Below are positions 13,220-26,421 of a DNA stretch of 64,000 nt, in pieces. Position 1 is the stretch's first letter, and each line of letters starts with the position of its first letter. Location: assembly GCA_018434325.1 (NCBI GenBank), contig JAHDPO010000007.1:186001-250000 (forward strand). The letters are read 5' to 3'. This DNA is from Clostridia bacterium (GTDB taxonomy: Bacteria; Bacillota; Peptococcia; DRI-13; UBA5745). Position numbers and translations under genes: made by a program. Under the pieces are notes generated by a model that saw only the letters and a program-made list of their open reading frames with translations, did no database searches and was not told where the DNA came from.

Positions 13220-14416
13220 TCAGTTAACTTCCACCTGTACCGTAAGCTCCAGGCCGGTGGCCAGATTCTGAGCGGTAATGCTATAGATGCCGCTATAGAC
13301 CTGATAACCGTCATCATCGGTAAGGTTCCATATTTCATTGATTCTTTGCGTAGCGTCAGGCATTATGGTGATTATCCGGCCAAAAGGACTAAAGCTTTGA
13401 TGCCGGGAATAGCGCCAAACCTCTTGATTATAAACGTTTCTGACCACGATCTCCACCAGCTGGCTGGAGTTGTAGCGGAGACTGACCGGCGCACTGGTGA
13501 TGTTGGTTTTTGACAGCATAATCTGCACCGATTGATTAGAACGGTAAACCCGCCGGTCTGTATAAAGGATCTGGCGTAAGCCATTGGAAACACCGGAGTT
13601 TACCGGCAGGCTGGGAGAGACTTGAGGCTGTTGCCCGCAATATACGCCCAGCAGGTTCCAGGTGCGGCCGTCGACTATGCCGGAAGGATAAATGCCGTTA
13701 TCCTGCTGGAAATTCCGTAAGGACTGCTGCAAACGGGCATTGAATATGCCGTCGTCAGGACCGGTATAGTAACCTTGGGCCCTCAGCAGCTGCTGTACCA
13801 GCACAACCGCCGGACCACGGCTGCCAGGCCGCAAAATGGGACAAAAGTATTCCTGGGGCGGGAAAACAGGCTGCGGCGGTCTGGGCTGCGGCCGGGGAGG
13901 TCTCGGTTGGGGTTGAGGCGGCCTCGGTTGGGGAGGTCTCGGTTGAGGCGGCCTCGGCTGGGGTTGAGGCGGTCTCGGTTGAGGTGGCCTTGGCTGGGGT
14001 TGAGGCGGTCTCGGCTGGGGTTGAGGTGGTCTCGGACCGCCACCATTGCCACCGCCTCCGGGGGGTCTGCCGCCACCATTGCCACCGCCTCCGGGGGGTC
14101 TGCCGCCGCCATTGCCATTGCCTCCGGGAGGTCTGCCATTACCATTGCCACCGCCTCCGGGAGGTCTGCCATTACCATTGCCATTGCCTCCGGGAGGTCT
14201 GCCATTACCATTGCCATTGCCTCCGGGAGGTCTGCCATTGCCGTTGCCATTGCCATTGCCGCCGGGCTCCATAACGGGAATCATAATTATCTGTCCCGCC
14301 ATCAATTCTGCATTTGGGCTAAGGTTATTGGCTGCCGCCAGCTGCTCTGCCGACAATCCCCACATGGCTGCTATAGAAAATAAGGTATCACCCTGTTGGA
14401 CAGTATATTGCCGCAT
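13220..14416 (-). CDS. LysM, Gly/Asn/Pro-repeat, peptidoglycan-binding and BsuPI protein
   Basis: A 398-residue envelope or spore-surface protein without a signal peptide. Domains in order: LysM (1-48, YTVQQGDTLFSIAAMWGLS); a linker of GGNGNGNGRPP-type repeats (about 52-130) and then PQPQPRPP-type repeats (about 130-185); a peptidoglycan-binding type 1 domain (about 190-265, GSRGPAVVLVQQLLRAQGYY); and a C-terminal BsuPI-like domain (about 280-398), related to the Bacillus intracellular proteinase inhibitor. LysM without a signal peptide is common in spore coat and cortex proteins of Clostridia. The start at ATG 14416 follows AGAGGAG, but the ATG lies inside a 16-bp hairpin (see 14402-14469). 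The repetitive linker creates long false open frames on the other strand. Confidence 0.88.
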   Translation of the reverse strand: MRQYTVQQGDTLFSIAAMWGLSAEQLAAANNLSPNAELMAGQIIMIPVMEPGGNGNGNGNGRPPGGNGNGNGRPPGGNGNGNGRPPGGGGNGNGRPPGGNGNGGGRPPGGGGNGGGRPPGGGGNGGGPRPPQPQPRPPQPQPRPPQPRPPQPQPRPPQPRPPQPRPPQPQPRPPRPQPRPPQPVFPPQEYFCPILRPGSRGPAVVLVQQLLRAQGYYTGPDDGIFNARLQQSLRNFQQDNGIYPSGIVDGRTWNLLGVYCGQQPQVSPSLPVNSGVSNGLRQILYTDRRVYRSNQSVQIMLSKTNITSAPVSLRYNSSQLVEIVVRNVYNQEVWRYSRHQSFSPFGRIITIMPDATQRINEIWNLTDDDGYQVYSGIYSITAQNLATGLELTVQVEVN

Positions 14417-17581: not shown

Positions 17582-17613
17582 TACCATATTTAAAGCCCTA
17601 TTGACAATGATTG

Positions 17614-17659
17614 AAAAAAAGTTGGATCCGTCCGGATAAGGGACAGATCCAACTTTTTA
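17614..17659. terminator. Bidirectional terminator after the tautomerase gene
   Basis: GTTGGATC (17621-17628) pairs with GATCCAAC (17646-17653), with an A-run before and a T-run after. An inner TCC/GGA pair extends it. Confidence 0.85.
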
Positions 17660-17688
17660 TTGTGATTAAATAGAGCAAGCTGCCGGTT

Positions 17689-17858
17689 ATACTATTCTGC
17701 GATTAAAATATTCCCTATTTTAATCTGGCAATTCTTGATTGCCTCTGCGCCAAAGGCGCAGGCAGAATAGCATATATGCCAATCTGCGTGGGCAAAGCCC
17801 ACTGCCGCACTCTGTGCGGCAAATTAAAAACTAAAGGTTTTTCATTGCAGATTAGTAT
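17689..17858. repeat. 170-bp element of six or seven consecutive hairpins closed by an outer stem
   Basis: The outer arms 17689-17703 and 17844-17858 pair over 15 positions with one mismatch and one G-U. Inside, hairpins follow one another almost without gaps: 17701-17725 (10-bp stem), 17727-17743 (6 bp), 17745-17761 (7 bp, AAA loop), a weaker one at 17763-17786, 17788-17802 (6 bp, AAA loop), 17803-17821 (8 bp, TCT loop) and 17826-17842 (6 bp). It starts 25 bases after the permease stop. The right end recurs at 26397-26421, which suggests a dispersed repeat. Confidence 0.75.
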
Positions 17859-17882
17859 TATGGCTCCGCTCCCGTCCTGCCG

Positions 17883-19265
17883 CTACTCGTTGCGGATAGC
17901 CAGAATAGGGCTGAGCTTGGAAGCCCGGCGGGCAGGATAGAAGCCGGCAATGATGCCGATGCAGAAAGCAAAGATCAGAGAAAAAATCATCAGATAGGGA
18001 GGAATCACGGAAATATTCAGCTGCAAGCCGTCCATGCTGGTGCCGAAGTAATCGCCGGACAGGTAGTTGATCAGCCTGGAAGCTCCCAGGCTGCAAACAA
18101 GTCCCAAGACACCGCCGCAGACGCCGATGAGGCCGGCCTCCATTAAGAACATTTTCATGACGTCAGCGCCGGTGGCGCCGATGACCTTCATTACCCCGAT
18201 TTCTCTCGTTCTCTCATAAATGGCCATGATCATGGTATTGGCAATGCCGATGGAGGCCACCAAAAGGGTGATGCCGCCGATGCCCCCCAGGACAGCCTGG
18301 ATAATCAGGGCCTGGTTCTCCACGTTTTCCATATAGTCAGCTACCGTCCAGAGATTGTAGCCGATATCCCGCAGAGTGACAGCCACAGCTCTGGCCTGCT
18401 TGACGTCTTTGCAGCGGATGAGAATCTGGTCATAATCCTGGGGGTTTCGGGTCATACCCATCTCGCCCCGTTCCTTCATTTCCTTTTCCCACTGCTCCTG
18501 CTGCTGACGCTGTTCTTCAGTCATATAAGACTTGTCATTAACAAAATCCCGCCATTTTTTTAAGGTGCTGATGGGGGCATAGGCGCTATAGGCATGCTCC
18601 TTAAATTCCCCTTCCAAAACACCGACCACGGTGAGGGGCTGCTTCTTAGTCATTTCATAATTATACTGATTATTGAGAGTAACATACACTACCTGATTCA
18701 GCATCTCTGTGGAATTAGATTGCTCCGCACCCCCGGGACCTATCATCATTCGCCGGCCTCCGCCGGTATCTTCAGGATCCCAAAACTGATTGATCACCTG
18801 CCAGCCCACGAGCACGCTGTTGACGTCCGCCTCTCTTAATGTCCGGCCTTCGGCAATTTCGTAAGTCATCTCATTGAACAATTCCGGATCGACGCCGTAG
18901 AGATTGAGCCAGCCTTCTTTTTTGCCGTACTTGGCTTGACCGTTGACCTGAATGGAGGGCATGACGGAAAGAACTCCCGGCTGGCTTTTAAACAGCGCCA
19001 CCGCATCATCATTCAGGCGCTGCTCGTCGCCTTTATATTCCCCTGTCTCCGGATCCCAACTGCGGCCCTGGTTAACGGTGATCATATTGAGATCGCCCCA
19101 GCTTTCCATCTGCTTGGTGGTGGCCTCCTTCAGGCCGATACCCAAAGACATCATGACCACGATGGCCATGGTACCGATAAATACACCAACGATGGTCAGA
19201 ACAGCCCGCATCTTCCGCCGGAAAAGGTTGCCATAGGCCATGCGGAGGACGTCTGCACTATTCAT
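17883..19265 (-). CDS. MacB/FtsX-type ABC transporter permease
   Basis: A 460-residue permease with the MacB layout: one membrane helix near the N-terminus (about 20-45), a large extracytoplasmic domain (about 46-325), and three membrane helices in the last 130 residues, ending FYPARRASKLSPILAIRNE, a family-typical tail. ERTREIGVMKVIGAT is the FtsX signature coupling region. The extracytoplasmic part contains a Gln/Glu-rich stretch (TEEQRQQQEQWEKEMKE), possibly coiled coil. It is the last gene of a three-gene operon with the CARDB-like protein (8-base overlap) and the ATPase. Such transporters act as mechanical devices on cell-surface or periplasmic cargo rather than ordinary pumps; the cargo is unknown. 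Confidence 0.9.
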   Translation of the reverse strand: MNSADVLRMAYGNLFRRKMRAVLTIVGVFIGTMAIVVMMSLGIGLKEATTKQMESWGDLNMITVNQGRSWDPETGEYKGDEQRLNDDAVALFKSQPGVLSVMPSIQVNGQAKYGKKEGWLNLYGVDPELFNEMTYEIAEGRTLREADVNSVLVGWQVINQFWDPEDTGGGRRMMIGPGGAEQSNSTEMLNQVVYVTLNNQYNYEMTKKQPLTVVGVLEGEFKEHAYSAYAPISTLKKWRDFVNDKSYMTEEQRQQQEQWEKEMKERGEMGMTRNPQDYDQILIRCKDVKQARAVAVTLRDIGYNLWTVADYMENVENQALIIQAVLGGIGGITLLVASIGIANTMIMAIYERTREIGVMKVIGATGADVMKMFLMEAGLIGVCGGVLGLVCSLGASRLINYLSGDYFGTSMDGLQLNISVIPPYLMIFSLIFAFCIGIIAGFYPARRASKLSPILAIRNE

Positions 19266-26320: not shown

Positions 26321-26349
26321 ATTTTAACAGATTATCTATTGTTTGTCTG
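26321..26349 (-). promoter_or_regulatory. Promoter of the GntR gene
   Basis: Minus strand CAGACA (26344-26349), 17-base spacer, TAAAAT (26321-26326) with a TG extension. The remainder of the gap 26286-26444 holds only the repeat end at 26397-26421. Confidence 0.5.
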
Positions 26350-26396
26350 CATCCCTTTTCAACAGTTTTCTGGAATGTTCTACAGTTAAAATCGAA

Positions 26397-26421
26397 GTTT
26401 TTAATTGCAGATCAGTATTCT
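26397..26421 (+). repeat. Second copy of the right end of the 17.7-kb hairpin element
   Basis: This 25-bp stretch matches 17837-17861 at 22 of 25 positions (shared core ATTGCAGAT then AGTATT). The rest of the element is not present here, so this is a solo end or a truncated copy. Confidence 0.5.

Follow-up and report, generated by a model that had tools for sequence, protein, structure and literature searches.

A gene-less element of two inverted hairpin modules, very probably a MITE mobilised in trans, in the genome of a Clostridia bacterium

Background

Prokaryotic MITEs (non-autonomous, gene-less mobile DNA elements) of a size similar to that of the element described here and with stable folds have been reviewed (PMC10969869, PMC2229807). 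Families such as Correia/NEMIS, RUP, Chunjie and QMITE are 100-200 bp long, carry no genes, end in terminal inverted repeats, are flanked by a target duplication, are dispersed in intergenic positions and have a very stable fold, and the element described here is like them in all these respects. Unlike them, it has an interior composed of two inverted multi-hairpin modules, each able to close on itself by a stem.

IS5 elements of the IS1031 subgroup prefer TNA targets and produce a 3-bp repeat (PMC12016507), and the present element has the same 3-bp TNA target duplication. Unlike that subgroup, it resides in a genome in which no IS5-type transposase (PF01609, PF13586) was found, and its terminal repeat, compared by eye, looks different from that of ISLrh, the one subgroup member quoted in that source. 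REP/BIME sequences and their RAYT proteins (PMC2817692) offer another comparison: pairs of inverted palindromic modules, mosaic half copies and an intergenic location are shared, whereas the present element has defined terminal repeats and duplicates 3 bp of its target, and no associated RAYT was seen. Polymerase template switching between inverted repeats can invert a loop while the arms are preserved, as described for short inverted repeats of yeast (PMC8604942). Loop (spacer) inversion with unchanged arms is also seen in the present element, its flips being deduced from the comparison of copies, in contrast to parent-offspring comparison or a strain phylogeny.

In this study, a stretch of 64,000 nucleotides from a Clostridia bacterium (the window) was analysed, in which an array of hairpins occupies positions 17689-17858. 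The genome to which the window belongs (G000) comprises 3.83 Mb in 70 contigs, and a congener (G004) served for comparison. The array is very probably one copy of a MITE that would have inserted at TNA by means of a DDE transposase supplied in trans and would later have been reshaped.

Structure of the element

The ends of the element were set by the TNA duplication together with an empty site in G004 (L073). The parts of the window copy, and a remnant elsewhere in the window, are as follows, with the evidence in brackets.

17690-17857, plus strand: mobile element proper, TACTATTCTGC...GCAGATTAGTA, 168 bp, module A then module B (full-length Blast copies in its own genome)
17687-17689, no strand: target duplication, left copy, TTA (sequence; statistics on 39 copies)
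17858-17860, no strand: target duplication, right copy, TTA (sequence; statistics on 39 copies)
17689-17700, plus strand: module A outer arm, a terminal inverted repeat, ATACTATTCTGC (inverted repeats I1 and I3; genome-wide 13-mer excess)
17701-17725, plus strand: module A hairpin 1, AT-rich stem of 10 bp, loop of 5 bases, both loop orientations among copies (fold; inverted repeat I4; copy alignment)
17727-17743, plus strand: module A hairpin 2 (fold; copy comparison)
17745-17761, plus strand: module A hairpin 3, GC-rich stem of 7 bp, loop AAA (fold; inverted repeat I12; copy comparison)
17762-17773, plus strand: module A inner arm, GCAGAATAGCAT, pairing with the outer arm of A (I3, 92% complementary)
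17776-17787, plus strand: module B inner arm, ATGCCAATCTGC, pairing with the outer arm of B (inverted repeat I5)
17788-17802, plus strand: module B hairpin 3, loop AAA or TTT across copies (copy comparison)
17803-17821, plus strand: module B hairpin 2 (inverted repeat I9; copy comparison)
17822-17846, plus strand: module B hairpin 1, AT-rich (inverted repeat I8; copy comparison)
17847-17858, plus strand: module B outer arm, a terminal inverted repeat, GCAGATTAGTAT (inverted repeats; 13-mer excess; TNA duplication)
26339-26418, plus strand: worn remnant of a module B half (match of the R2 covariance model, G000:C1:212339-212418, 21.4 bits, E 0.0245)

Inverted-repeat analysis indicated that module A runs from ATACTATTCTGC through three hairpins to GCAGAATAGCAT, and module B from ATGCCAATCTGC through three hairpins to GCAGATTAGTAT, with a spacer of two bases between the modules. 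Closure is possible within either module (I3, I5) as well as between the two outermost arms of the element (I1). A comparison of module A with module B in reverse gave 64% identity, whereas 200 letter shuffles averaged 48.9 and reached at most 56.2; the full element is therefore made of two diverged versions of a single module in inverted orientation. No coding sequence was found inside the 170-bp element, in which the longest stop-free run is 50 codons. Across copies, the terminal inverted repeat reads TACTAWTCTGC...GCAGAWTAGTA.

Folded as RNA, positions 17689-17858 adopt a minimum-energy structure of seven hairpins within an outer stem at -78.6 kcal/mol, which none of 200 shuffles equalled (mean -39.8, z -9.5). 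The opposite strand is equally stable (-81.3 kcal/mol, z -9.3). The dense hairpin array of the original prediction was therefore recovered, but not its outer stem of 15 bp: the outer stem occupies 12 columns, with 11 pairs and one mismatch, and the three bases inward of it are better paired within the first hairpin. This fold is best regarded as a feature of the DNA itself, any effect at the RNA level being secondary.

In the window, the element lies between convergent genes, since a short plus-strand ORF, which we take to be tautomerase-like, ends at 17582 on one side, and the stop codon of a permease gene (ORF 17883-19265, minus strand) lies 25 bp from the element on the other. Just left of the element, at 17623-17660, a long inverted repeat (AAAGTTGGATCCGTCC...GGGACAGATCCAACTTTTT) was read by eye; situated between the two convergent genes, it is a likely bidirectional terminator. 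Elsewhere in the window, the minus-strand ORF at 13220-14416 encodes a presumably LysM-like protein with a long low-complexity stretch (GNGNGRPPG / PPQPRPPQP).

Copies in the genome and in relatives

A Blast search of its own genome with the element returned many full-length and half-length matches, with identities of up to 98%. Sites matching the 13-base end TATACTATTCTGC with at most two mismatches numbered 96+105 genome-wide, compared with 30+37 for a reversed control. Covariance models of the two half-elements were searched over ten genomes and the hits were merged into places, which gave 53 places in G000, 6 in G004 and no matches in the others of the ten. Because 11 of the 53 places touch contig ends, some copies may be split between contigs and counted twice, and the true number may be somewhat lower; three of the places (C10, C9:73136 and C1:212339) are weak, with E above 0.001. 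A search with the module A model over 25 genomes of the order found the family in two of them and in none of the other 23.

The original prediction had suggested a dispersed repeat family, for which a single genomic copy would have been contrary evidence; the 53 places in its own genome support that suggestion. The recurrence it had noted at 26397-26421 is also real, being the tail of the worn right-half copy at 26339-26418.

Nine full copies from G000 have a mean mutual identity of 95.4%, compared with 85.9% to the G004 copies, and this higher identity within G000 points to a recent burst. Contig JAHDMJ010000018.1 ('Clostridia bacterium isolate R1-B15.2') was identical to G004 over 3178 bases. 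No match to the element was found in plasmid and phage records. One viral contig shares a 19-base piece of the element end, the sequence around it not being that of the element, and a second viral pattern search gave 0 matches. A single pattern scan of genome contigs also gave 0, but with a pattern that would miss the G004 copies too. Weak Blast matches of 19-27 bases in two further genomes (G020 and G034) were taken as chance.

Insertion sites

The target duplication was examined on 39 complete copies (33 from G000 and six from G004), fragments at contig ends having been dropped. The base at -1 equals the base at +1 in 32 of the 39 copies, compared with a mean of 16.6 in 1000 permutations (p 0.001), and the flanks carry T at -2 in 32/39 and A at +2 in 33/39. 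No comparable signal was found at other flank offsets, the next best being -1 versus +3 (p 0.03). This is the pattern that would be expected for a 3-bp TNA direct repeat around an element spanning TACTA to TAGTA; the T and A of the flanks hardly vary, so the duplication is deduced from the single base that does.

Empty sites were sought by joining the flanks of 24 sites, minus the element and one TNA, and searching for the joined sequences in four congeners. A usable G004 locus was available for 19 of the 24, there being none to align for L008, L010, L026, L028 and L043. At none of the 19 loci does G004 carry the element, and in 14 of them a single TNA stands at the joint, although the left flanks are poorly conserved at several of these 14 (L006, L030). 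The five remaining loci show CTA (L001), TGT (L004) or TTG (L041) or are unalignable at the joint (L002 and L014). L001 is the window copy, whose flanks align across the G004 joint apart from the CTA. The inverted-repeat ends, the 3-bp target duplication and the empty sites in the congener support the mobile element that was one of the original suggestions.

At the site of L044, G004 has about 157 bp of unrelated inserted sequence instead. G004 also carries a second, unrelated short inverted-repeat insertion with ends GTACTCTGCGTCCACTAAAAG, at about 1344-1502 of L075 (G004:C4, minus strand), where it is flanked by a CTA repeat, and also at L196 and L197; matches to this end number 3+5 in G004 versus 1 in G000.

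Rearrangement of copies

The 34 G000 copies that were classified comprise 16 with both modules (A-B), 11 with A only and seven with B only. Of the six G004 sites, three also hold a copy in G000, but with an internal deletion or different content. In one of these (L034/L172) the element is whole in G004 and has lost module B in G000, and in another (L031/L051) only a tail is left in G000. At the third, one and the same TAA, presumably located between rpsB and tsf (L042, 1001-1085; L036, 1501-1580), G000 has module A and G004 has module B in the opposite orientation. The remaining three G004 sites were absent among the G000 loci examined.

The loop of module A hairpin 1 occurs in both orientations among the 34 A halves: TTCCC in seven and GGGAA in three, TTCCA in eight and TGGAA in six, and CTCCA and TGGAG in one each, on a stem in which seven of ten pairs are invariant. 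As some loop types differ from others by one substitution, a single flip would suffice at minimum, but two or three give the simpler account. The common half copies and the loops of both orientations point to template switching during replication of the DNA, of the kind outlined above for inverted repeats, and not to selection on an RNA; we infer template switching as the probable cause of the loop flips.

It is conceivable, although we consider it unlikely, that what moves is the single hairpin module, closed by its terminal-repeat-like stem. At a given chromosomal site such a module could be deleted, swapped or turned round by a hairpin-recognising transposase or recombinase that would leave a 3-bp TNA duplication, and the rpsB-tsf TAA, with A in one species and a reversed B in the other, would suggest such events.

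Some 70 bp from a B half, at about 985-1030 of L055 (G000:C44), the loop region of a terminator-like hairpin (AAATCCGGGATTTGC...GCAAATCCTGGATTT) consists of a lone end sequence, TTAATACTATTCTGC.

Gene context and transcripts

Gene context was counted for 34 copies, fragments at contig ends excluded, and against ORFs of at least 90 aa, a cut-off that misses short genes, among them the gene on the left side of the window copy. Relative to flanking co-directional genes, ten copies have the same orientation and 11 the opposite one. The nearest gene boundary is a 3' end for 27 of the 34 copies (raw count), eight lie between convergent genes and none lies inside an ORF of that length. In seven of the 34 (raw count), the TNA duplication is the stop codon of the neighbouring gene, which retains its stop because the triplet is duplicated.

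Paired changes were also compared between copies. Two-sided changes were found at 2 of 36 pairs in module B and 3 of 35 in module A, and the test yielded little because the copies are too alike. The covariation score of module B was higher than in any of the 500 shuffles, and that of module A higher than in 487 of 500, but the paired changes looked for in the original prediction are few.

The very stable fold and the proximity of 27 of 34 copies to a gene 3' end would suit a structured RNA family, either a 3' UTR element or a small RNA, with its stems under selection, as the original prediction had also suggested. We consider this very unlikely, since the reverse strand folds equally well, the orientation relative to co-directional genes is balanced (10 versus 11), two-sided changes are few even though the covariation in B beats all shuffles, the loops flip, the positions of copies are mostly unshared with the congener, and there is no Rfam match. 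Rfam gave 0 gathering-level matches in the window, the chance-level hits all falling outside the element. As the main reading of the array, a structured RNA was rejected on account of the strand symmetry, the lack of orientation bias and the lack of an Rfam match.

The same counts bear on whether a formerly mobile element is now kept as a transcription terminator, a stabiliser of mRNA 3' ends or a protein-binding site. The 27 copies nearest a 3' end, the eight between convergent genes and the seven whose duplication supplies a neighbour's stop codon are consistent with such a role. However, with none of the 34 copies inside ORFs of at least 90 aa, the 3'-end bias may reflect only the insertion sites that are tolerated, and no T-run terminator was called. 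Retention for such a function is therefore improbable as the main account of a mobile element, although a secondary role in transcript ends is possible.

Candidate transposases

Partner transposases were sought with PF01609 in G000 and eight relatives, with PF13586 in 31 genomes and with Y1_Tnp in G000. PF01609 had 0 matches in G000, and PF13586 had 0 matches in G000 and G004. The PF01609 locus of G004 and other loci of these families fetched from relatives had no matching ends. The end-sequence sites that were examined (at most one mismatch) proved to be element copies or isolated arms, and none was seen beside a transposase. At L019, where two copies lie 800 bp from each other, the ORF that separates them was considered as a transposase and rejected, as it reads as another protein, presumably a signal peptidase.

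The Y1_Tnp search of G000 returned one Y1 transposase of IS200 type (L059, G000:C49), an intact ORF of 167 aa with hairpin ends of its own. At its borders, no element ends were found within two mismatches, and three weak hits in the locus were scattered. To our knowledge, IS200/IS605 enzymes leave no target duplication, whereas the element leaves one of 3 bp. The presence of this gene, and the resemblance of the inverted palindromic module pairs to BIMEs (PMC2817692), would fit a REP/BIME-like element moved by a hairpin-recognising tyrosine transposase (Y1, RAYT or IS200-type); given the duplication and the gene borders that lack element ends, there is very little probability that this is the case.

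The TNA duplication fits IS1031, but PF01609 and PF13586 are absent from G000, and the element was therefore not classified as an IS1031 derivative. The partner transposase has therefore been lost, is unassembled or belongs to a family outside those searched, such as IS3, IS30, IS982 or ISAzo13. MITEs often occur without a resident partner, so that its absence weakens the claim about the partner and not the classification as a MITE. The element is short and without a transposase gene, has terminal inverted repeats and a target duplication, and occurs in dispersed copies with empty orthologous sites, as MITEs do; an autonomous counterpart sharing its ends was not found. We infer both the class of the transposase and mobilisation in trans.

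Conclusions

In the proposed mechanism, a trans-acting DDE transposase, most likely of IS5/IS1031-like specificity, would have recognised the TACTAWTCTGC terminal inverted repeat and inserted the element at T-N-A, with duplication of the three target bases. The noncoding interior consists of two diverged, inverted modules, in each of which a stem resembling the terminal repeat encloses three hairpins. Once inserted, copies would be altered by replication errors, with the deletion of one module giving rise to half elements and with inverted loops arising when the template is switched from one hairpin arm to the other.

With no match in Rfam or in plasmid or phage records, this is an undescribed MITE family, and its inverted-dimer architecture is unusual. 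No paper on it was found in the literature, although one may exist.

Arrays of several hairpins that are recognised by folding alone should be interpreted with caution, as they can turn out to be palindromic DNA derived from mobile elements. What seemed an exotic RNA fold is, very probably, a mobile element whose history is legible copy by copy. The family appears to have been amplified recently without a resident transposase, and its many natural loop flips in otherwise fixed stems may make template switching on palindromes measurable in a genome.
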